Of a stretch of 64,000 nt of DNA, positions 23,995 through 50,818 are shown in pieces. The stretch comes from Halomonas sp. ML-15 (lineage in GTDB: Bacteria; Pseudomonadota; Gammaproteobacteria; Pseudomonadales; Halomonadaceae): assembly GCF_014779595.1 (NCBI RefSeq), contig NZ_JACXZT010000001.1, positions 186,001 to 250,000 on the forward strand, given 5' to 3'. The position numbers and the translations under genes were made by a program. The notes under the pieces are model-generated. The model was not told where the DNA came from, did not search any database, and saw only the letters and a list, made by a program, of their open reading frames with translations. Position 1 is the stretch's first letter. Every line of letters begins with the position of its first letter.

Positions 23995-25263
23995 GTGCCA
24001 TCACGCAGCGACACTCCTCTGGCCAACGCGATCGCCAGCGATGACCTTGCCGAAGACAGCTACTGCATTGCGCTGCAGCCGGTGTGCGATGCCGATTTAC
24101 ATCACATCGGCGACGAACTCCTCTACCGCGCCAGCGCTAGCGACGACAGCGCCACTATCACCGATCCGCTGCTGGCCACCGCTCGAGCCAGCAGCATGGC
24201 TATCTACGAGATCGGACTCGACAAGCTGATTGGTGAACGGCTGCTGTTTCTCAAGGTGTCCAGAGAGTGGCTCGAACGGCCGGAGCTGCTGCCGTTTCCG
24301 GCCAACAATGTGGTCATCGAAGTCCTTGACGACGGCACGCCACTCAACGACCTTACCAACGCCTTGGCGCAGATCAAACAGCGCGGTTACCAGCTGGCCC
24401 TGGACGCCAGCGCCGTGCTTCAGGGAGACATCGAGACCCTCAGCGGTATCGCCGATATCATCAAGTTCCGTCTCGACGAGGGCATCACATCCGAGCGCCT
24501 CGACGCCTTCCGCTCCGCCGACTGCCAGCTGCTCGCCCAACGCCTCGAAACCCGCGATCAGATAGACGCCGCGCGTCGGGCCGGCTGTTCGCTACTGCAG
24601 GGGTTCTTCTTCGCCCAGCCAAGCAATGTTGCCCCTCCCACCGCGAGCCGGCGCAGCAATCCCAGCATTCAGATCAAGCTGATTCGCGAGCTCTACCGCG
24701 AGATGGTCAACACCGAGCGCCTGGCTGACATGATCGCTCAGGACCCACACCTGTACCTGATCGTCATCAAACGCGCCAACTCAAGCTACTACGCCCAGAC
24801 TGGGGGTAGCAGCCTGCGCAGAAGCCTGCACGTGCTCGGTATCAATGAACTGCGCACCCTGGTCGCCACGGTGATGCTGGCCCAGAACGGCCCGGTGTCA
24901 CGCCTGGCGCTCAAGCACGCCCTGACCCGCGCCACCATGTGCAAGCATCTGGCCGCGCCCTTCCCCCAGCTCGATCCGGAAGACGCCTTCACCACCGGCC
25001 TGTTCTCGCTGATGGACACCATGCTGGGAATCGGGATGAGCGCGCTGCTCGACGAAGTCGAACTGAGCGATTCCATAAACGCCGCGATTCGCGACGGCAG
25101 TGGCCAGCTCGGCGCTATTTTGACCATCGCCCGCGACTACCAGGCCTTCGTCGCTCTCGATGCAGAAGATTCAGGGATGCCGCCCAATGCGCAGTTGAGG
25201 ACGGCCTATCTGGGAGCGCTGCAGGAGACGCAGGCGCTGATGAGCAGCCTGCAGGAGGAGTAG
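23995..25263 (+). CDS. EAL-HDOD signalling protein (degenerate EAL)
   Basis: 422 residues. The N-terminal half is an EAL-like domain in which the catalytic motif is altered to ELLYR and most metal ligands are missing, so it probably does not hydrolyse c-di-GMP; QGFFFAQP marks its end. The C-terminal half is an HDOD domain (LIRELYREMVNTERLADMIAQDPHL, SLRRSLHVLGI). Such proteins, called CdgJ or YuxH-like, influence motility in Vibrio and relatives. The GTG start has AGGGA 6 nt upstream. Lying next to the flagellar cluster, but on the opposite strand, suggests a link between surface and motility signals (inference). Confidence 0.85.
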   Translation: MPSRSDTPLANAIASDDLAEDSYCIALQPVCDADLHHIGDELLYRASASDDSATITDPLLATARASSMAIYEIGLDKLIGERLLFLKVSREWLERPELLPFPANNVVIEVLDDGTPLNDLTNALAQIKQRGYQLALDASAVLQGDIETLSGIADIIKFRLDEGITSERLDAFRSADCQLLAQRLETRDQIDAARRAGCSLLQGFFFAQPSNVAPPTASRRSNPSIQIKLIRELYREMVNTERLADMIAQDPHLYLIVIKRANSSYYAQTGGSSLRRSLHVLGINELRTLVATVMLAQNGPVSRLALKHALTRATMCKHLAAPFPQLDPEDAFTTGLFSLMDTMLGIGMSALLDEVELSDSINAAIRDGSGQLGAILTIARDYQAFVALDAEDSGMPPNAQLRTAYLGALQETQALMSSLQEE

Positions 25264-25286: not shown

Positions 25287-25982
25287 TCAGGTCAGCCGCG
25301 CCTTGAGACGCGTCACTGCCTGACTGTGCAGCTGGCAGACCCGCGATTCACTGACGCCGAGTACCGCGCCAATCTCCTTGAGGTTGAGCTCTTCTTGATA
25401 GTAGAGGCCCAGGAGCAGTTTCTCGCGCTCGGGGAGCTGTTCAATCGCTTCTACCAATCGCTGGCGCTGCTCGCCATCGACCAGTGCAGCAAAGGGTGAC
25501 GGCGGTGCGCCCTCGCCGTTCCCCGGCTCCACGCCCTCTGCCACCATCTCCTCGTAGGGCAGCAACTGGCCGCCGTTGGTGTCGCCTAGCAGCTGATGGT
25601 ACTCAGCAAGTTCGACGCCCATCTCGTCGGCGATTTCCTGCTCTTCGGCGGCACGCCCCAGGCGCTGCTCGGCTCGCCGCAGGGCCTCGTCCAGGGCTCG
25701 CGCATTGCGCCGAACGCTGCGCGGCACCCAATCGCGGCTGCGCAGCTCATCGATCATCGCCCCACGAATGCGCTGACTGGCATAGGTGGCAAAGCTCGCC
25801 CCCTGCCCCGCATCGAAACGATTGAGACAGTCGAGCAGCCCGACCATGCCGGCCTGGATCAGGTCGTCGAGTTCGACGCTCGCCGGCAACTTGACCTGCA
25901 TGGCCAGCGCCTGGCGGCGCACCAGCGGCAGATACTGCTCAAGCAGTGCGCCTTGATCGATCTTGCCCTTTGCCGTGTACAT
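25287..25982 (-). CDS. fliA: Flagellar sigma factor 28 (FliA)
   Basis: Sigma factor for late flagellar and chemotaxis genes. The 231-residue form shows LPASVELDDLIQAG (region 2), TYASQRIRGAMIDELRSRDWVPRSVRRNAR (regions 2.4-3) and the region 4 helix-turn-helix LNLKEIGAVLGVSESRVCQLHSQA. The start is unclear: ATG 25982 gives MYTAKGK, matching the family N-terminus, but has no close ribosome site. A TTG at 26006 would add eight residues. Last gene of the long cheB-to-fliA series. Four sigma-28 promoters elsewhere in the window are its likely targets. Confidence 0.93.
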   Translation of the reverse strand: MYTAKGKIDQGALLEQYLPLVRRQALAMQVKLPASVELDDLIQAGMVGLLDCLNRFDAGQGASFATYASQRIRGAMIDELRSRDWVPRSVRRNARALDEALRRAEQRLGRAAEEQEIADEMGVELAEYHQLLGDTNGGQLLPYEEMVAEGVEPGNGEGAPPSPFAALVDGEQRQRLVEAIEQLPEREKLLLGLYYQEELNLKEIGAVLGVSESRVCQLHSQAVTRLKARLT

Positions 25983-26093
25983 CGCTATCGCTGCGACCTC
26001 AGTCAACCTGGAAATCGAATCGCACCCCTAGGGGCAGAGCCATCATGCTGGCATTATCCCGCGATGGGGCAAACCGCCATGCCAAGAATAGCC

Positions 26094-26549
26094 TCACTGC
26101 CCGACGGTTTTTTGCGCCTTTGCCTCGACCGGCCGACGATAGTCGACGAACACCTGCAGCTCGCTGATCTGTGCCGGCCGGCTCCCCGCCCCAAGCCGAA
26201 AGCGAAACGTCAACGGCTCGCTTGCTGACAGTCCCGCCAGCGCCTCGCTGCGACCCCGCGAGCTGCCAAGACGCATGCAACGCTGCGGATGGCATAGCCA
26301 GGCCTGGTACGCCGTGCCCGGTGGCGTGGCGTACTGCCAGCCCACCTGGGAAATCTGCGCCCGCGCCGGGACGCCTGGCCCCGGCGCCAGCGGCCGACTA
26401 TGCGTGTCGCGACCGGGTACCGCCACTCGTACGCCATCGGTCTCGGCAATCCAGCTGCCCGACACCGCGGCGGTATCCGCCATGCCCCACTGCGCGCAGG
26501 CAGCCAGCACAGCCAGCGCACCCAGTCTGGGCACCCACGCCGCCCTCAT
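26094..26549 (-). CDS. flhE: FlhE, periplasmic flagellar protein
   Basis: 151 residues with a signal peptide ending near GMADT (about residue 25). Similarity to enterobacterial FlhE is visible in VGWQYATPPG, LCHPQRCMRL (cysteine pair), SASEPLTFRF and the C-terminal VFVDYR. FlhE has been linked to preventing proton leakage through the flagellar export apparatus. In enterics it follows flhA; here flhF and an unknown gene intervene. ATG overlaps the upstream stop by four bases. Confidence 0.8.
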   Translation of the reverse strand: MRAAWVPRLGALAVLAACAQWGMADTAAVSGSWIAETDGVRVAVPGRDTHSRPLAPGPGVPARAQISQVGWQYATPPGTAYQAWLCHPQRCMRLGSSRGRSEALAGLSASEPLTFRFRLGAGSRPAQISELQVFVDYRRPVEAKAQKTVGQ

Positions 26550-27073
26550 GTACCGCTCCCCGCGGCGCCGGGCTTTACCAACAACAGACGGATGCCGAGA
26601 AACTCGGCGGCGGCCTGACGCAGATTGTTGAGCAGGCCGCGTGACGTGCTCAGGCGTGGATGCAGCGCCATCAGACAGCTCGGCCCGCCACGCTCGGCGA
26701 GCTGCTTGAGCAAACGGTAGCTACGCCGAAAGGCCTCGGGATCGCTGTCGATCCATAGCGCCCAGCGCATCTGCTGTTCCGCCAGCACGGGCAGGTGGTG
26801 ACTGTCAGTGGTCAACGGCACCACTCGCCAGGCACTTGGCTCGCCGACCCAGGCTTGTCCCTGACGCCGCCACGACTCCAGCAGACGGTAGACGGGTGCC
26901 GCATCGTTAGCAGGCAGTCCTACCACCATCAGGGTACGCCGGGCCATGGCAGACTCGACCTGCCGGGTACGTGACGCCCCGGGCGGCGATGACGCCACCG
27001 GCTCCGCAGCGGAGGATTCACCCGCCCACTGGCGCAACCCTGCCGCCTGATCCTTGAACGACATGCTCGACAT
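26546..27073 (-). CDS. Unknown protein at the flhG position
   Basis: About 175 residues (start uncertain: ATGs at 27100, 27073 and 27064; 27073 chosen because it follows the flhF stop by one base). It has RRTLMVVGLPANDAAPVYRLL, a beta-strand-loop-helix resembling a nucleotide-binding fold, but without a Gly-Lys-Thr P-loop. Later segments MRWALWIDSDPEAF and RGLLNNLRQAAAEFLGIRLLLV look like alternating strands and helices. This is the slot normally filled by the MinD-like ATPase FlhG, but family membership cannot be claimed. It overlaps flhE by four bases, so it belongs to the flagellar operon. Confidence 0.7.
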   Translation of the reverse strand: MSSMSFKDQAAGLRQWAGESSAAEPVASSPPGASRTRQVESAMARRTLMVVGLPANDAAPVYRLLESWRRQGQAWVGEPSAWRVVPLTTDSHHLPVLAEQQMRWALWIDSDPEAFRRSYRLLKQLAERGGPSCLMALHPRLSTSRGLLNNLRQAAAEFLGIRLLLVKPGAAGSGT

Positions 27074-27074
27074 C

Positions 27075-29405
27075 TCAGGCGGCCACCTCACGGAAGACAT
27101 CCCGCGCCGTCAACAGATGGATCAACGCATCGAGCAGGGACGCCGCCTGCCGGCTGCGTTTACTGCCCAGCAGTGTCAGCAACTGAGCGCGCACATCCAT
27201 CGCCCACTCGCCCTCGTCCTGAGCCAGATTGAGCGCTACGCAGGCCAAGCCGTAAGCAAGCTGCAAGCGCAGCTCGGCGTCGCCGGCGCCGAAACCGGCG
27301 TCGATCACGCCCTGCCAGGCCCGACGCGTCAAGCCAGGCATCTCCGCCAGCATCAGCTGCTGGGCAATCAACGACTGCGGCGGAGTATCGGATGCTAGTG
27401 ATGTCAGCCAGTAGCGGCATGCCAGTCGCTTACCGCTGTCGAGATCCACTGGTATCGCAGTCAACAGCGATAGCGGCGGCACCTCCAGGCCACTGCGGGC
27501 GGCATGGCTGACCGGCAGCTGATGCAGCGCCAGCGACAAGCGTCGCCCCTGATGGCGAATTGTCACCTCACTGTGTGGCGACGCCTGCGTCACCAGCGCA
27601 CCTACCGGGATCCGCTGGCCGTCGACCAGCACTCGCTGGTTCGGTTTGGTTGCAGCCAACCACGGCAGCTGCCAGGCGCTGAGCCAGCTCAGCGCATCTC
27701 CCGTCGGCAAGGAGGCCAGCACGTGGGCCTCAGGCCCCAGCTGCTGAGCGCTCCACTCGAACCGCTCGAGATCCCCCGCCGGAAGGCGTTGGGTCTGCCA
27801 GCCGCTGGCCAACAGCCGACCATCGGCGCTGGTCGCTCCACACGGCAGCCGCCAGTCGCAGCCGTTCACCCGCTGAGTGCCCCACAGCAGGGTCAATCCG
27901 TGACTGTCACCGGTCTCACGAGCCGCTGCCAGCTGAGCGGCATGCAGTCCATCCAGGGCGCCGCGCTGGCGCTCCAGGGGCTGGCACGCCAGCTGCCAGG
28001 CGCCCTCGACCAGCGCAAAGCCGGGCTGATGAGCGCGTAGCGCATCGAGCGCTGCCCGCAGTGCTCGGCCCTGGCCCAACAGCCCCCGCGACAGCGCCGT
28101 CAGGCGCTTCTGGCCACTCGCCGCCGGCTCGCGCAGCGCACTGAACTCGGGGGTAAACGGCGAATCTCCCTCGACCCGCAGCGCCTCGGCGACCAGCGCC
28201 GCCGCGTCGGCCAGGCTCAGGTCCTCCGGCACCTGCTGACCATGCGACTCATAGTGCAGCGACAGGCCGTGGCGAATCACGCTATCCAATAGCGGCCCCA
28301 GCCTTGCCGCCTCATCGCGCTTGGTCAGAATGCAGTCATCGAGGCGATTGTTGGCCGCCCGCGCCGCCTGACGATAGCTGACAATGACGTCCTCGAGCGT
28401 ATCGCCATGGCTGGCGGCGTTGAGCAACAGCAGCAGCCGCACTCGGCGACCGCTGGCGGAGAGCTGCTCGATCTGTTGCACCAGACGCCCGTCGCGCTGG
28501 CTCATGCCGACGGTATCGATGATCACCAGGCGTTTATCGGCAAGCCGCGCCAGGGTCTCGTCGAGCGGCGCGTCGGCGTCCTGTGCGTGCACCTCGACGC
28601 CCAGCAGGCGCGCATAGATACGCAGCTGCTCATGGGCGCCGATGCGATAGCTGTCGGTGGTCACCAGCGCCACACCGTCGCTGCCGTGACGCATCACGTA
28701 GCGCGCGGCGAGCTTTGCGGTCGTCGTCGTCTTGCCAACCCCGGTGGGGCCGACCAGGGCAATGACCCCGCCTTCATCGAGCAGCGCCGCTTCATCACGC
28801 GGTGCGCTGAGGCGTGCGCTGAGCTGACGTGCCAGCCAGGCGTCCTGGGCATCGCTGTCGGTGGCCGCATCCAGCTCGGCCGGCAGTTCGGCCAGCAGCT
28901 CAGCCGCCAGCCGCGGACCGACCCCGGCCGACCACAAGCGTTGATACAGCCGCGCCAGGGGGTCGCGATCGCCGTGCTGTTCGCGCTGCTGGCGCCCCAG
29001 CATGTCACGCATCTCCTGCATTTCACCGAGCAGGCGCTCGCTGAGCGCAGCAAAATCTGGCTGAGCGGGCGCTGTCGGCTCGGCGGCGGGACGAGTCTGC
29101 GGTTCGGCTTGACGCGGCGCTGCCGTGCGCGCCGCCGCCTGGCTGGCATAGGCCCGCGCCTGGCGCGACGCATCGGCGGGAGAGCGCAGCCCTGCCACTG
29201 GCTCACGGGAAGACGTCTCAGCGGAGGGCGACGGCGCCTCATTCGGCGAGGTCATCCGGCCATGGGCCTCGTCGGCCAGGGCAAGCACCTCAACGCCACC
29301 CTCGACGTCGCGGTTGGAGAGGATCAGCGCATCGTCGCCCAGGGCGGCGCGTACCTGGCGCATCGCCTCGCGGCTATTGACGCCGAGAAACCGTTGAACA
29401 CTCAT
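27075..29405 (-). CDS. flhF: FlhF, SRP-like GTPase with a long C-terminal extension
   Basis: 776 residues, against roughly 400-450 for usual FlhF. Residues 1-45 match the FlhF B-domain start, followed by an Ala/Pro-rich linker. The NG GTPase domain has GPTGVGKTTTTAKL (about 218-232), DSYRIGAHEQLRIYA, IIDTVGMSQRD, the G4 motif TKRD and GQQVPEDL, ending near residue 412. The last ~360 residues resemble nothing I know: they are Leu/Ala/Gln-rich, with several Trp. FlhF helps place flagella in polar species. The start at 29405 has GAGGA 7 nt upstream. Cotranscribed with flhA. Confidence 0.9.
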   Translation of the reverse strand: MSVQRFLGVNSREAMRQVRAALGDDALILSNRDVEGGVEVLALADEAHGRMTSPNEAPSPSAETSSREPVAGLRSPADASRQARAYASQAAARTAAPRQAEPQTRPAAEPTAPAQPDFAALSERLLGEMQEMRDMLGRQQREQHGDRDPLARLYQRLWSAGVGPRLAAELLAELPAELDAATDSDAQDAWLARQLSARLSAPRDEAALLDEGGVIALVGPTGVGKTTTTAKLAARYVMRHGSDGVALVTTDSYRIGAHEQLRIYARLLGVEVHAQDADAPLDETLARLADKRLVIIDTVGMSQRDGRLVQQIEQLSASGRRVRLLLLLNAASHGDTLEDVIVSYRQAARAANNRLDDCILTKRDEAARLGPLLDSVIRHGLSLHYESHGQQVPEDLSLADAAALVAEALRVEGDSPFTPEFSALREPAASGQKRLTALSRGLLGQGRALRAALDALRAHQPGFALVEGAWQLACQPLERQRGALDGLHAAQLAAARETGDSHGLTLLWGTQRVNGCDWRLPCGATSADGRLLASGWQTQRLPAGDLERFEWSAQQLGPEAHVLASLPTGDALSWLSAWQLPWLAATKPNQRVLVDGQRIPVGALVTQASPHSEVTIRHQGRRLSLALHQLPVSHAARSGLEVPPLSLLTAIPVDLDSGKRLACRYWLTSLASDTPPQSLIAQQLMLAEMPGLTRRAWQGVIDAGFGAGDAELRLQLAYGLACVALNLAQDEGEWAMDVRAQLLTLLGSKRSRQAASLLDALIHLLTARDVFREVAA

Positions 29406-29454
29406 CGCACAGTCCTCGCTTGCTGGCATTTAGTGACATGATCGAGCAGGCGGC

Positions 29455-31539
29455 TCATCCGCGGGCTCCCACCGTGCTGGTGACACGCAGGGTGCGATCG
29501 TCGGGAATCTCGGCCTGGGACAGCACCACCAGGTGGCGTAGGCGACGCCGCAGGAAGCGCGCCAGCACCGCGCGCAGGTTGTGCTGCACGACCAGCACCG
29601 GCGGCTCGCCGGCCATCTCCTGATGGCTCAGCGCCTGCTCGGTCTCGGCCATCAGGGTATCGGCCAGGCCGGGCTCCAGGGCCCCGCCGTTGTTCATCGC
29701 CTGCATAAGCACCTGCTCGAGGTTGGCATCCAGGCCGATCACGTGCAGCTCCTCGTCGCCGGGGAACCACTGCTGTGTAATCGAGCGACCCAGCGCCACC
29801 CGCACCACCTCAGTAAGGCTGGCGGCATCGCTCTGCGGACCGGCATGCTCGGCCAGGGTATCGAGAATGGTACGCATGTCGCGAATCGACACATCCTCGT
29901 CGAGCAGGTTCTGCAGCAGCCGCTGCAGGGTGGTGAGGGTGATCGCCTTGGGCACCACATCCTCGACCAGCGACTTATTGTCCTCGCCGAGCTTGTCGAG
30001 CAGCTGCTGCACCTCGCTGCGGCCAAGCATCTCGCTGGCGTGACGATGCAGCAGGTGATTGAGGTGGGTGGCGACCACGGTGCCGGCATCGACCACGGTA
30101 TAGCCATACACCTGGGCGTGCTCGCGTTGCGCGGTATCGATCCACACCGCCGGCAGGCCGAACGCCGGATCAGTGGTCGCGGTGCCCTCGACGTGACCCG
30201 ACACCTGGCCCGGATCGATGGCCAGCCACTTGCCCGGGAAGGCGTCGCCGCGTCCTACCTCGACACCCTTCAGCGAAATCACGTAAGTGTTGGGACCCAG
30301 CTCGAGGTTGTCGCGGATATGCACCACTGCCGGCAGGAAGCCGACGTCCTGGGCAAATTTCTTGCGCACGCTCTTGATGCGCCCCAGCAGCTCGCCCTGC
30401 TGGCGATGATCGACCAGCGGAATCAAGCGATGACCGACTTCCAGGCCCAGGGTATCGACGAGTTGCACATCGTCCCAACTGGCCTCCGGTGCCTCGGGTG
30501 GTGGTGGCGGTGCAGCGCTGATCTCCTGCTCGGCCAGCTCGGTCTCCTTACGCCGCATCAGCCACCAGGCCAGACCGCCCAGTAGCACAGTAAAGAACAG
30601 GAACACGAAGTTAGGCATCCCCGGCACCATACCCAGCATGCCCATCACACAGGCTGCCAGGATCAACACCTGGGGATTGACGAACAGCTGACTGATCATC
30701 TGCTGGCCGACATCTTCATCGGTAGTGACGCGGGATACCGTCACACCTGCCGCAGTGGAGATCACCAGTGCCGGGATCTGCGCCACCAGGCCATCGCCAA
30801 TGGTCATCAAGGTATAGGTACGCGCAGCGCTACCGAAATCCATGCCGTGCTGGAGCATGCCGATCAGCAGGCCACCGATGATATTGACCACCATGATCAC
30901 CAGGCCGGCCATGGCGTCGCCGCGCACGAACTTGCTGGCACCGTCCATGGAGCCGTAGAAATCGGCCTCCTGAGCCACCTCGGCGCGCCGCTTGCGGGCG
31001 TCGTCTTCGCCGATCAGACCGGCGTTGAGGTCGGCGTCGATGGCCATCTGCTTGCCGGGCATGGCATCCAGCATAAAGCGAGCGCCGACTTCGGCAATCC
31101 GCCCGGCCCCCTTGGTGATGACCATGAAGTTGATGATCACCAGGATCAGGAACACCACCAGGCCAACCGCGAAGTTGCCGCCGACCAGAAACTGGCCGAA
31201 CGCCTCGATCACCTTGCCCGCCGAGTCTCCACCGCTATGCCCTTCCATCAGAATCACGCGGGTCGAAGCCACGTTCAGCGACAGCCGCAGCAGGGTGGTG
31301 AACAGCAGAATCGCCGGGAAAGCGGCGAAGTCGAGCGGCTTCTGGGTAAACATGCTGACCAGCAGCACCATCACCGCTAGCGCGATATTGAAGGTGAAGA
31401 ACATGTCCAGTGCGAATGGCGGCAGCGGCAGGATCATCATCGACAGGATCATGAGGATCAGGATCGGGCCGGCCAGCAGTTTCATGTGCACGTCGCCCAT
31501 CCAGTCGCGACGGCCCAGCAGATCAGTCAGCGCTCTCAT
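29455..31539 (-). CDS. flhA: FlhA, flagellar type III export gate
   Basis: 694 residues, normal length. The N-terminal half has about eight membrane helices with the signature LLRLSLNVASTR and the conserved FHIPEP-region counterpart GDAMAGLVIMVVNIIGG. The C-terminal half is the cytosolic docking ring for chaperone-substrate complexes. GAGGAG lies upstream and ATG overlaps the flhB stop by four bases. Confidence 0.97.
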   Translation of the reverse strand: MRALTDLLGRRDWMGDVHMKLLAGPILILMILSMMILPLPPFALDMFFTFNIALAVMVLLVSMFTQKPLDFAAFPAILLFTTLLRLSLNVASTRVILMEGHSGGDSAGKVIEAFGQFLVGGNFAVGLVVFLILVIINFMVITKGAGRIAEVGARFMLDAMPGKQMAIDADLNAGLIGEDDARKRRAEVAQEADFYGSMDGASKFVRGDAMAGLVIMVVNIIGGLLIGMLQHGMDFGSAARTYTLMTIGDGLVAQIPALVISTAAGVTVSRVTTDEDVGQQMISQLFVNPQVLILAACVMGMLGMVPGMPNFVFLFFTVLLGGLAWWLMRRKETELAEQEISAAPPPPPEAPEASWDDVQLVDTLGLEVGHRLIPLVDHRQQGELLGRIKSVRKKFAQDVGFLPAVVHIRDNLELGPNTYVISLKGVEVGRGDAFPGKWLAIDPGQVSGHVEGTATTDPAFGLPAVWIDTAQREHAQVYGYTVVDAGTVVATHLNHLLHRHASEMLGRSEVQQLLDKLGEDNKSLVEDVVPKAITLTTLQRLLQNLLDEDVSIRDMRTILDTLAEHAGPQSDAASLTEVVRVALGRSITQQWFPGDEELHVIGLDANLEQVLMQAMNNGGALEPGLADTLMAETEQALSHQEMAGEPPVLVVQHNLRAVLARFLRRRLRHLVVLSQAEIPDDRTLRVTSTVGARG

Positions 31540-32720
31540 CGAGGCTCCTCGGTAACATCATTCTCTCCAGATGCCGCGCCATTCGGCGCCTTGGCATCGA
31601 GTTCAGCCGGGACCGGCAGGTCACTGGGCGTATCTGGCATTTCCTCCACCCCGTCATGGGCACGCTTGAGGCGGAACGCCCAGGCCAGGACCTCTGCCAC
31701 CGCGGTATACAGCTCAGCCGGAATCTCACGGTCGAGATCGACATGGTGATAGAGCGCCCTTGCCAGCGGCGGCGCCTCCAGCAGCGGCACCCCGTGCTCC
31801 TCGCCTAGCTCGCGGATTCTGCCGGCCACCGCATCGGCCCCCTTGGCCACCACCCGCGGCGCCGACATCAGCCCATCGTCGTAGCTCAGCGCCACCGCGT
31901 AATGGGTCGGGTTGGTGACGATCACGTCTGCCTCGGGCACCTTGCTCATCATGCGGTTGCGCGCCATCGACTGCTGCTGGGAGCGGATCCGCGCCTTGAG
32001 ATGCGGGTCACCCTCGGTCTCCTTGTGCTCGCGCTTGACCTCCTCCTTGCTCATGCGCAGCTTCTTGGCATGGCTCCAGAGCTGGTACGGCACGTCGATC
32101 AGGATCACCACCACCAGTGCCAGGATAGCCAGCCCACAGGCCAGCGCCGCCAACTGCATGGCACTGGCCAGGGCCTGCTGGATCGGCTGATCCATCAGGC
32201 TCAAGTATCTGCCGCGGTTGGTGTAGAGAAAGGTCAACGCCACACCGCCCACCAGCGCCGACTTGGCGATCGCCTTGAGCAGCTCGATCACCGCCTGCAC
32301 GCCGAACATCCGCTTGAGGCCCTTGAGCGGGTTGAGCTTTGACAACTGCGGCTTGAGCGACTTGGCCGAAATCAACCAACCGCCGAGTAGCGCCGGGGCC
32401 ACCAGCGCCACCAGCATCAGCAGCAGGAATAGCGGCAGCATTGTCAGCAGCGTGTGCTGGCCGATATTGAATATGTGCGTCAACATCGGCATTACCTCGA
32501 AGGCGTGCCGACGCTCGAACAGAAACGCCTGCTCCATGGCCAGCCCCAGCTGGTCATAGAGCATCGCCCCCATGGTATAGAGGCCGATCACGCCGCCCAG
32601 CAGCAGCATGAAGGTGGTCAACTCACGGGAACGCGCGACCTGACCATCATCGCGCGCCTTCTGCAGGCGTCGCGGCGTGGCTTCTTCGGTCTTTTCCTGA
32701 TCGCTGTTCTGGTCGGCCAT
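31536..32720 (-). CDS. flhB: FlhB, flagellar export switch protein
   Basis: 394 residues. The N-terminus ADQNSDQEKTEEATPRRLQKARDDGQVARS is typical. Four membrane segments are followed by a cytoplasmic domain with the autocleavage motif NPTH in IVTNPTHYAVAL. Cleavage there switches export from hook to filament proteins, in concert with FliK. A C-terminal acidic/Pro tail extends past the family core. The second, FlhB-tail-only homologue is at 51487-51771. Confidence 0.97.
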   Translation of the reverse strand: MADQNSDQEKTEEATPRRLQKARDDGQVARSRELTTFMLLLGGVIGLYTMGAMLYDQLGLAMEQAFLFERRHAFEVMPMLTHIFNIGQHTLLTMLPLFLLLMLVALVAPALLGGWLISAKSLKPQLSKLNPLKGLKRMFGVQAVIELLKAIAKSALVGGVALTFLYTNRGRYLSLMDQPIQQALASAMQLAALACGLAILALVVVILIDVPYQLWSHAKKLRMSKEEVKREHKETEGDPHLKARIRSQQQSMARNRMMSKVPEADVIVTNPTHYAVALSYDDGLMSAPRVVAKGADAVAGRIRELGEEHGVPLLEAPPLARALYHHVDLDREIPAELYTAVAEVLAWAFRLKRAHDGVEEMPDTPSDLPVPAELDAKAPNGAASGENDVTEEPR

Positions 32721-32875: not shown

Positions 32876-33565
32876 CTAGAAGCCGAGGTCGTCTAGCAGG
32901 TCGTCGACCTGGTCCTGGGAACTGACCACGTCGGCACCTTCCGGCTTGATCTGCGGTCCGTTGAGCAATGACTCCTCGCGCTTCTTGGCATCGGCTTGCC
33001 ACTGACCATCGGCGCGGCGCTGGAGCTTCTCGCGCTCTTCGCCTGCGGGCACGCTATCGAGCAGCACCTGCACCAGCTGATGCTCGATCTCACGGATCAT
33101 CTCCATCATCTTCTTGATGACCTGGCCCGTCAGATCCTGGAAATCCTGTGCCATCATGATTTCCATCAACTCAGCATTGGTGGCCTGAGTCTGGGCCGGC
33201 ACCTTGCCGAGATAGGCGCGGGTATCCTGGACCAGTGCCTTGGCCTCGTCGAGCTCCATGGGATTCTCGAACCAGGCCTGCCACTGCTTGTCGAGCGCCT
33301 CGGCCTGTTCGCCCATCGCATCCTGAATTGGCTGAGCGCGGTCAATCGCATTGAGCGCCCGTTCGGCGGCCTGCTCGGTCATCGACGCCACATAGCTCAG
33401 ACGGTCGCGAGCGTCGGGAATTGCCTCCGCAGCACGCTCGATCTCCTTCTCCAAGCCCAGCTCGCGCATGCTTTCGCGCAGCATTCGGGTCAGGTGGCCG
33501 ATGCGCTGAACCAGATCATCGCTGCCGGCCGCCCCCTGGGCAGACGCACGCTGTGCATCGCTCAT
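32876..33565 (-). CDS. cheZ: CheZ, CheY-P phosphatase
   Basis: 229 residues, largely helical. The catalytic region is MAQDFQDLTGQVIKKMMEMI with the conserved DFQDLTGQ, and the CheY-binding tail is DQVDDLLDDLGF at the very C-terminus. AGGAG lies 9 nt before ATG 33565; the frame is open further upstream, but that part is not CheZ-like. Follows cheY, as in enterics. Confidence 0.96.
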   Translation of the reverse strand: MSDAQRASAQGAAGSDDLVQRIGHLTRMLRESMRELGLEKEIERAAEAIPDARDRLSYVASMTEQAAERALNAIDRAQPIQDAMGEQAEALDKQWQAWFENPMELDEAKALVQDTRAYLGKVPAQTQATNAELMEIMMAQDFQDLTGQVIKKMMEMIREIEHQLVQVLLDSVPAGEEREKLQRRADGQWQADAKKREESLLNGPQIKPEGADVVSSQDQVDDLLDDLGF

Positions 33566-33620
33566 AATCGTTTTCTCCTTGAGGCCGGCTAATGGCCCAC
33601 GGTGAGTGAATTCACCCCGC

Positions 33621-34010
33621 TCACATACCCAGCTTTTCGAAGATCTTGTTGAGCTTCTCTTCAAGGGTCGCGGCAGTGAACGGCTTGACGACATAGCCGT
33701 TGGCGCCGGCCTGAGCGGCGGCAATGATATTTTCCTTCTTGGCCTCGGCGGTCACCATCAATACCGGCAGGTCCTTGAGGGCATCATCGGCGCGGATCTG
33801 CTTGAGCATCTCCAGACCATCGAGGTTGGGCATGTTCCAGTCCGAGACCACGAACTCGAAATTGCCGCTGCGCAGCTTCGACAGCCCGTCCTGACCGTCT
33901 TCGGCCTCTTCCACGTTGGTGAATCCCAGCTCCTTGAGCAGGCTACGTACGATCCGACGCATGGTCGGAAAATCGTCCACCACCAGAATACTCATGTTCT
34001 TGTCGGCCAT
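33621..34010 (-). CDS. cheY: CheY, chemotaxis response regulator
   Basis: 129-residue single receiver domain with all key residues: the acidic pair at 12-13, phosphoacceptor Asp57 (SDWNMP), Thr87 and Lys109. Phospho-CheY binds the flagellar switch and changes rotation. Lies between an mcp and cheZ. Confidence 0.97.
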
Positions 34011-50233: not shown

Positions 50234-50818
50234 TCAGCGCACGGAGGTAACTATCGCGGAGGGCTCGAATGACGAGACCGCCTTGGCCTTGGCCGCGGCC
50301 AGGCGCTTGCGGGTCTTACCCGCCCGCGAGGGGGGCTGGCAGATACCGCATACAAAGTCATGGCATGGGGTATGAGCGTGGGCCACGAAATGGCCACCGC
50401 AACTAGTGCAGGGGTTCAGCTCGAGCATTTCGCTCTCGAAGAATCGAATCAGCGTCCAGGCACGAGTCAGACCCAAGACCGGCTCGGCATCGTCCAGCTC
50501 GACCTGTTCGAGATAGAGCCGGAACGCTTTGACGAACGCCTCCATTCGATCACAACCGTGATCCTGCTTGAGACGTAGATAGATGTTGTAGAACAGCGAG
50601 GAGTGGACGTTGGGCATCCAGGTGATGAACCAGTCAGTGGAGAACGGCAGCATCCCCTTGGGCGGTGACATGCCGCGCACCTCCTTGTACAGGCGAATCA
50701 GCCGCGCCCGACTCAGATCAGTCTCGGTCTCCAACACCTGCAGGCGGGCCCCGAGCTCAATCAACTCGATAGCCATCTGCACCTGCCGCATCTCGGTCAC
50801 CAGGCTCTTGTCCGCCAT
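50234..50818 (-). CDS. flhC: FlhC, master flagellar activator subunit
   Basis: 194 residues. The zinc site is made of CTSC followed by CHDFVCGIC, as in enteric FlhC. The N-terminal region LIELGARLQVLETETDLSRARLIRLYKEV is the helix-turn-helix. Acts as a complex with FlhD to switch on class 2 flagellar genes. Starts 2 nt after the flhD stop. Confidence 0.96.
   Translation of the reverse strand: MADKSLVTEMRQVQMAIELIELGARLQVLETETDLSRARLIRLYKEVRGMSPPKGMLPFSTDWFITWMPNVHSSLFYNIYLRLKQDHGCDRMEAFVKAFRLYLEQVELDDAEPVLGLTRAWTLIRFFESEMLELNPCTSCGGHFVAHAHTPCHDFVCGICQPPSRAGKTRKRLAAAKAKAVSSFEPSAIVTSVR

Follow-up and report, generated by a model that had tools for sequence, protein, structure and literature searches.

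A C-terminal extension of FlhF, almost certainly of IS4/Tn5-family transposase origin, in Halomonas and other bacteria

INTRODUCTION

FlhF and FlhG form a central switch for the place and number of flagella. In polar flagellates and in Bacillus, as described in a 2025 review (PMC12826062), FlhF is composed of B, N and G domains with GTPase motifs, and its partner carries a DQAxxLR enhancer helix; the Gln of this helix stimulates the GTPase of FlhF. Here, we analyzed the flhF gene of Halomonas sp. ML-15 (assembly GCF_014779595.1), found in a stretch of 64,000 nucleotides of contig NZ_JACXZT010000001.1 (positions 186,001 to 250,000; called the window below). Its product shares the B-N-G core and GTPase motifs of canonical FlhF proteins, and the neighboring gene codes for the DQAxxLR helix. 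In contrast with the canonical pair, however, this FlhF has an extra domain of about 345 residues in phase with its core, and the neighbor, called mini-FlhG here, is missing the P-loop along with a large part of the MinD-like ATPase domain.

The flagella of Halomonas and Cupriavidus are often peritrichous, and Halomonas and Cupriavidus metallidurans are amenable to laboratory work. The E. coli flagellar genes follow the order flhB-flhA...flhE. Enterobacterial flagella under FlhDC control operate without FlhF and FlhG (PMC12826062); the locus of the window shares the FlhDC control and the flhB-flhA...flhE order with them, but flhF and a reduced flhG sit between flhA and flhE. According to the review, flhF and flhG were either excluded when enterobacteria received a betaproteobacterial operon or lost soon after, and how enterobacterial peritrichous flagella came to lack them is left open there (PMC12826062). 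The FlhF form described below is a concrete possible intermediate.

Tn5 transposase is laid out as an RNase H-like core with a beta insertion, followed by C-terminal helices. In its predicted structure, the extension of FlhF resembles Tn5 transposase and its inhibitor in all these elements; it differs from Tn5 in having no Asp at the positions of the first two catalytic residues (D1 and D2), in being fused to FlhF, and in showing no mobile-element ends around it. A dead transposase kept by selection within FlhF would represent an unexpected domestication. No FlhF-transposase fusion was found in the open-licence literature, judged by titles and the beginnings of abstracts, and neither "transpos" nor "Halomonas" occurs in the text of the 2025 review (PMC12826062).

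The closest described sequence family is NF011312 (PRK14723), a model of 768 positions that spans the B, N and G domains plus the extension. FlhF of the window matches it end to end (9-774; 432.2 bits) below the cut-off of 951 and is thus not a formal member, though the architecture is shared. The FlhF protein of Cupriavidus sp. EM10 exceeds the cut-off (1142.6), indicating that the model describes the Cupriavidus-type long FlhF. Neither the name of the model, "flagellar biosynthesis regulator FlhF," nor its description mentions a transposase. Long FlhF is therefore already known as a sequence family, and what appears to be new, judging from the literature searched, is the transposase identity of its extension. 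As an annotation matter, positions 411-768 of NF011312 contain an IS4-type transposase domain; the high cut-off (951) keeps proteins from being misnamed, but the two can be mistaken for each other in searches at low thresholds.

RESULTS AND DISCUSSION

The FlhF extension and its predicted fold

The flhF frame lies on the minus strand (the plus strand of 27075-29405 contains internal stops). From its first ATG, the open reading frame (ORF; 29429..27075) codes for 784 residues; an in-frame ATG at 29405, whose position is equivalent to the MSVxRF start of relatives, yields a protein of 776 residues. Residue numbers refer to the 784-residue form unless the 776-residue form is stated. The GTPase motifs GPTGVGKTT, DTVG and TKRD are all intact. 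An earlier note on this DNA, made from the sequence alone, had placed the end of the GTPase core near residue 412, in good agreement with the SRP54 match, which ends at residue 417 of 784 (409 of 776). The same note described what follows as an extension of unknown kind, matching no known domain. The latter holds for Pfam and NCBIfam scans of the window extension, which together with PHROGs gave no name to the extension or to mini-FlhG. Structure and profile comparisons nevertheless identify a transposase, and the kind of the extension can now be given as an IS4/Tn5 transposase domain from its fold, from profiles, and from a bridge through Cupriavidus FlhF.

Relatives were searched in 58 genomes, of which 37 belong to the family of the window (23 with a long FlhF, 6 with a short one, 8 with none). 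An alignment of 22 extensions, i.e., the 23 long forms minus one near-duplicate, was used for an AlphaFold2 model, which reached a predicted local distance difference test score (pLDDT) of 87.3 and a predicted template modeling score of 0.85. Stretches of three or more residues with a pLDDT of <50 are limited to model residues 1-9 and 13-28 (415-423 and 427-442), in the hinge region. A Foldseek search of the PDB with this model returned six chains at E ≤ 0.001, all of them Tn5 transposase (3ecp, 1b7e, 1mm8, 4dm0, 1muh, and 1mus), and the next row was the TRPML1 channel (E = 0.014). With VIA-align, the Z score was 16.9 for the Tn5 inhibitor 1b7e and 13.6 to 15.0 for the other five chains, with root mean square deviations of 4.6 to 5.7 over 283 to 299 residues at 12 to 14% identity; the next chain, piggyBat, had a Z score of 6.9. 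The modeled extension has a Tn5-like fold.

Sequence relation to IS4/Tn5 transposases

We used a profile of the extension alignment (A1) to search 369 genomes of the class. With few candidates scored per genome, its matches were three FlhF genes and a single gene of another kind, P0003 (E = 7.8e-8), a 428-residue IS4 transposase ORF in a genome of another family. P0003 scores 25.6 bits with Pfam DDE_Tnp_1 and 74 bits with an NCBIfam IS4 transposase model, and positions 411-767 of NF011312 match P0003 at 129.9 bits (E = 1.2e-37). A transposase set of eight (A3) was assembled from P0003 and seven of eight sequences fetched from plasmids; L085 has an Asn at the first catalytic Asp, and L087 is truncated before that site. 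A1 matched five of these transposases at 28 to 40 bits, the best of 160 shuffled and 8 reversed sequences reaching 6.4 bits. In the reverse test with the A3 profile, the highest score among 440 shuffles was exceeded by 12 of the 22 extensions. Alignment of A1 with the eight transposases by hhalign gave a probability of 95.5 (E = 1.5e-8) over 244 columns in the C-terminal two thirds. Cupriavidus FlhF provides a bridge: plain BLASTP pairs its extension with P0003 (E = 4e-11 over 379 columns), and hhalign pairs it with A1 (probability 79.9, E = 1.4e-5, 317 columns). Scanned singly, 8 of the 22 extensions match NF011312 (best E = 4.4e-21).

Several observations weigh against a transposase origin. 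The Foldseek TM (template modeling) scores to Tn5 are modest (0.46 to 0.50 by query length), and three more distant IS4 transposases were not matched by A1. The extension of the window itself scores 0.7 bits with the A3 profile, not above shuffles, reaches only E = 0.005 with P0003 in a single BLASTP comparison, was assigned to no transposase family when scanned alone against Pfam and NCBIfam, and found no match by tblastn in 72,556 plasmid records. Among the 22 extensions scanned singly, one matches a transposase model (IS701, E = 7e-4) and none a Pfam transposase family. The relation is thus significant at the level of profiles and of the Cupriavidus bridge, not for the window sequence alone. 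Taking both sides together, we consider it almost certain that the extension is an IS4/Tn5-family transposase domain by origin. Transposases themselves aside, this domain was found here only on FlhF. Matches of single members to Pfam families such as DAPG_hydrolase (E = 0.0026), and the single row obtained with the profile against PDB sequences (6omp, E = 0.23), were taken as chance.

Conservation of the extension and loss of catalytic residues

The extension is in phase and uninterrupted in 23/23 long-form loci of the relatives search. The long forms align end to end, and the 22 aligned extensions share 11 invariant columns at identities to the window that range from 78% down to 21%, far more conservation than chance would give. 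The ratio of nonsynonymous to synonymous substitution rates (dN/dS) is 0.107 to 0.224 for the extension, 0.073 to 0.118 for the N and G domains and 0.168 to 0.369 for the linker before them, in eight pairs that are not mutually independent and include some dS values of >1. Tree distances of the N-G part and of the extension correlate among 37 long FlhF proteins, a set that excludes the Cupriavidus forms (r = 0.77; reached in 0 of 2,000 permutations), indicating that the two parts were largely inherited together. It is highly probable, on these comparisons, that the extension is selected as part of FlhF.

These data bear out the claim of the earlier note that the extension is in phase and no frameshift artefact, its conservation and low dN/dS ruling out an artefact of frameshift or insertion. 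The note had also pictured a conserved, folded module linked to FlhF and usually to a particular next gene, in keeping with the invariant columns, the confident model and the DQAxGLR frame that follows in 22/22 loci of a pattern scan (see below). Instead of being absent from relatives, or disordered and unselected, the extension is conserved, confidently folded in the model, and under constraint.

In a joint alignment with the transposases, no Asp is present at either catalytic Asp column in 22/22 extensions, the first column being mostly gapped. Both are also missing in two Cupriavidus extensions and in three from another family of the order, f222. No terminal inverted repeats flank the domain; the region 26900-28300 contains only short internal inverted pairs. 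The domain is very likely dead as a transposase, as far as this alignment can tell. Against this, most extensions have a gap at the first Asp column, which makes its exact partner uncertain; in L026 and L030, an Asp precedes a nearby invariant Trp by three residues; and the Glu column is acidic in 13/22 extensions, with an acidic residue at the next position in the other 9, so that the third acid may be retained.

Occurrence of long FlhF and link to FlhDC-type flagella

Of 250 family genomes, 193 have a match to FlhF at E ≤ 1e-20, which is long in 177 and short in 16; long and short forms were assigned by score, and the match in one of the long cases (G522) is split. With related genomes counted singly, FlhC is present in 177/177 genomes with a long FlhF and in 1/16 with a short one, that one being weak (E = 4.7e-15). 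A further 19/250 genomes have FlhC without an FlhF match, as in enterobacteria, and 38/250 have neither. In six genomes of the family (L071 to L076), FlhF is short, no FlhC or intact FlhG was found, and fliA directly follows flhF, which leaves this FlhF devoid of the partner that it normally has.

Genome contigs scanned with a pattern yielded 22 long-FlhF loci, in Franzmannia, Halomonas, Aidingimonas, Litchfieldella, Modicisalibacter, and Kushneria and, for three of the 22, outside the family; the 22 loci overlap the genomes of the relatives search, with seven on the same contigs as judged by length. In the six Kushneria loci (L105 to L108, L110, and L111), a small DQAxGLR frame follows flhF, and flhA, flhB, and flhE were not found in the 11-kb locus. 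The three loci outside the family belong to Pseudomonas linyingensis, P. sagittaria, and Stutzerimonas stutzeri K1 (L103, L104, and L109), which have FlhC in 3/3 cases and only the long FlhF. Their Halomonas-like FlhDC-type operon suggests a transfer that replaced the usual Pseudomonas polar system.

Four of 293 genomes of the order, all of one genus in family f222, also carry a long FlhF, in the order cheZ-flhB-flhA-flhF and then flhE-fliA, with a mini-FlhG homologue in between in 2/4. Among plasmid records, four Cupriavidus replicons, that of the query included, match the Cupriavidus extension; the FlhF proteins of strains EM10 and CH34 have 847 and 825 residues, respectively. In the class, FlhF was found in 193/369 genomes, and outside the family the longest open frame among the matches listed has 623 residues (G356); the two class-wide searches were limited to 5 and 2 scored candidates per genome, respectively. 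The Pseudomonas/Stutzerimonas, f222, and Cupriavidus loci rule out a module restricted to Halomonadaceae. Where FlhC was tested, i.e., in the family and in Pseudomonas/Stutzerimonas, long FlhF goes with FlhDC-type flagella.

mini-FlhG and the decay of FlhG

The protein encoded downstream of flhF in the window begins MSSMSFKDQAAGLR. Candidates for mini-FlhG were picked downstream of flhF as frames with a pattern close to their start, [DN][QL][AS]..L in the relatives search and [DN]QA..LR in the pattern-scan loci. With the looser motif, a candidate was present in 21/23 long-FlhF loci and in 0/7 short-FlhF loci. Twenty of them, picked in this manner and aligned, have D8, Q9, A10, G12, L13, and R14 invariant at a mean column identity of 29%. 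A DQAxGLR frame follows the long FlhF in all 22 pattern-scan loci; 16 of these frames match mini-FlhG of the window by BLASTP, and the six of Kushneria are recognized by motif and position only.

The P-loop (deviant Walker A) is absent from mini-FlhG, and Pfam and NCBIfam found no ATPase family for any of the 20. In hhalign comparisons, the C-terminal half of FlhG pairs with the second half of mini-FlhG in a single register, whether the FlhG is an intact one (E = 0.0066) or that of Cupriavidus or Burkholderia (E = 0.0015 and 0.01, respectively; unrelated control, 0.53), with low probabilities of 4 to 17 for FlhG. For a structural model of mini-FlhG, the top VIA row is FlhG 4rz2 (Z = 7.3, root mean square deviation of 3.8, 121 residues), tied with others, and the best Foldseek row is a flavodoxin (E = 9e-4). 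We read mini-FlhG, from these alignments, as a putative reduced FlhG that keeps the FlhF-activating motif.

Intact FlhG was found in 0/37 family genomes, where the best matches reach some 80 to 91 bits over part of the profile, versus 313 to 497 bits in 13/21 other genomes; the 37 include all six short-FlhF genomes. No P-loop FlhG is present beside any long-FlhF locus whose neighbor was examined. Cupriavidus FlhG is full-length and has DQAxxLR, with both P-loop lysines lost by eye. The FlhG protein of a Burkholderia glumae plasmid likewise lacks both lysines (by eye), next to a 574-residue FlhF that does not match PRK14723 in its extension part. The motifs suggest that these betaproteobacterial FlhG proteins are probably not ATPases. 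The B. glumae plasmid, pBGF2 of strain BGR1 (L140; 23 kb), carries flhB-flhA-flhF-flhG-fliA.

The short-FlhF genomes without intact FlhG and the B. glumae case show that the decay of FlhG is wider than the extension and does not need it, which rules out a strict link between the extension and FlhG loss. They also weigh against the proposal of the earlier note that the extension could replace FlhG-type control, even though the absence of a P-loop FlhG fits it. Part of that control rather seems to be retained, through the activating motif of mini-FlhG.

Decay of the GTPase domain in a single lineage

In two f222 genomes (L136 and L137), the G2 segment and the TKxD motif of FlhF are gone, no mini-FlhG is seen beside flhF, and flhF abuts flhE. 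The two proteins are 89% identical in the B domain, 62% in N-G, and 75% in the extension. Among 666 pairs of long FlhF, the extension is at least as conserved as N-G in five: this pair and four others, in which the margin is 0.1 to 2 points and three of which involve L136 or L137. Relaxed constraint on the GTPase while the extension is kept suggests that the latter may have a GTPase-independent role; against this stands that the decay is a single case (two genomes of one genus). A rule by which the GTPase decays wherever mini-FlhG is missing is ruled out by L026 and L030, which lack mini-FlhG and have near-normal GTPase motifs (SKTD for TKxD); decay is present only in L136 and L137.

Proposed role of the extension and alternatives

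The explanation toward which we lean, as a whole, is that an IS4/Tn5 transposase domain, fused to the C terminus of FlhF and inherited with it, has lost both catalytic Asp residues and works as a scaffold in FlhDC-type flagella. The manner of action is a more even call: the scaffold would be non-catalytic, most likely a dimerization or docking surface. Flagellar assembly was reported to require the B domain of FlhF, which is likely the FliG-binding part (PMC12713375). In the proposed mechanism, the B domain, on the FliG/FliF side, and the transposase domain would hold partners together, the extension holding a second partner or a second FlhF, and FlhF could thereby function in the assembly of FlhDC-type (non-polar) flagella. 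The GTPase switch of FlhF would be turned off or reset by the mini-FlhG helix with DQAxxLR, and the system would neither need nor use the MinD-like ATPase cycle of FlhG any longer.

More tentatively, the dead transposase may be a standing part of FlhF in FlhDC-type flagella whose role is able to outlive the GTPase, one lineage having arrived at an adaptor of B domain and transposase domain with neither GTPase nor FlhG beside it. The FlhF/FlhG switch might thus have been lost from FlhDC-type flagella in stages, from FlhF with a P-loop-less FlhG, to FlhF-transposase with mini-FlhG, to a GTPase-dead FlhF-transposase, and finally to none.

Two other roles were weighed. The domain might still bind DNA without sequence preference and tie FlhF to the nucleoid, so that flagella form on the cylindrical part of the cell instead of its poles. 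Its transposase ancestry, the retained N-terminal helical part, and a net charge that is positive in 19/22 extensions (mean of +3, compared with +5 for the eight transposases) fit such a tether, but the charge is negative in two extensions and zero in one, and the Arg and Lys of a transposase motif, which we take to be of the YREK type, are not conserved, the Lys column containing an Arg in 4/22; we regard a tether as unlikely. More doubtful again is that the extension took over the numerical or spatial control exerted by FlhG and let FlhG shrink. The lack of a P-loop FlhG beside the examined long-FlhF loci, and in the 37 family genomes, would be expected on that account. Those 37 genomes, however, include all 6 with a short FlhF, the B. 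glumae plasmid combines an FlhF without extension with an FlhG devoid of both P-loop lysines, and DQAxxLR is kept in 20/20 aligned mini-FlhG.

As for origin, a recent event in which an insertion sequence (IS) landed at the end of flhF and left an unselected fusion would explain a transposase-derived domain, and at least one real IS4 relative exists elsewhere. It is hardly credible given a domain present end to end in 22 aligned members down to 21% identity, a dN/dS of 0.11 to 0.22, the lack of flanking inverted repeats, and a long form, assigned by score, in 177/250 family genomes. Convergence on an RNase H-like fold without transposase ancestry is very improbable, if slightly less so than a recent insertion: the window extension alone has no significant transposase match and the TM scores are modest, yet the matches through profiles and the Cupriavidus bridge are colinear and significant, and the Z scores to Tn5 (13.6 to 16.9) lie far above those of other RNase H folds (6.9).

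Features of the locus

The features are listed in Table 1. The operon on the minus strand has the order cheZ, flhB, flhA, flhF, mini-FlhG gene, flhE, and fliA; flhF is flanked by flhA upstream and the FlhG-type gene downstream.

TABLE 1 Features of the flhF locus in the window and of related loci (window positions unless a locus is given)
Feature	Position	Strand	Basis or remark
flhF, 776 residues	27075..29405	-	TIGR03499 FlhF, 256.7 bits (cut-off 174.15), covers 9-308
FlhF B domain, residues 9-65	29235..29405	-	Alignment with relatives
FlhF N and G (signal recognition particle-type GTPase) domains, residues 151-417	28179..28979	-	Pfam SRP54, 222-417
Hinge, residues 418-438	28116..28178	-	Low-confidence stretch of model
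Predicted IS4/Tn5-type transposase-derived domain, residues 439-784	27078..28115	-	Fold and profile comparisons
N-terminal helical part of that domain, residues 439-510	27900..28115	-	Matches transposase N-terminal region by eye and by a weak BLASTP piece (E = 0.055)
Site aligned with second catalytic Asp, here Ala572	27714..27716	-	Joint alignment with transposases
Site aligned with catalytic Glu, here Ala695, then Glu696	27345..27347	-	Joint alignment; placement uncertain
mini-FlhG, 175 residues, start ATG 27073	26546..27073	-	DQAAGLR, then small alpha/beta domain without P-loop
DQAAGLR of mini-FlhG, residues 8-14	27032..27052	-	Alignment; motif role from PMC12826062
flhE	26094..26549	-	PF06366, 68.6 bits
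fliA	25287..26006	-	Pfam/NCBIfam scans
flhA	29455..31539	-	Pfam/NCBIfam scans
flhB	31536..32720	-	Pfam/NCBIfam scans
cheZ	32876..33724	-	Pfam/NCBIfam scans
flhC	50303..50818	-	PF05280, 285.1 bits; contig positions 236303-236818
Betaproteobacterial FlhG	L138 7354-8169	+	DQAxxLR present, P-loop lysines absent by eye
Betaproteobacterial FlhG	L139		DQAxxLR present, P-loop lysines absent by eye
Betaproteobacterial FlhG	L140 3959-4771	+	DQAxxLR present, P-loop lysines absent by eye
GTPase-decayed FlhF	L136 6635-8548	-	B and transposase-like domains conserved
GTPase-decayed FlhF	L137 7450-9405	+	B and transposase-like domains conserved

An Rfam scan of the window from 20 to 40 kb found nothing. Next to fliA, a gene for a protein with an HDOD domain and a partial EAL domain is present on the plus strand (23995-25263).

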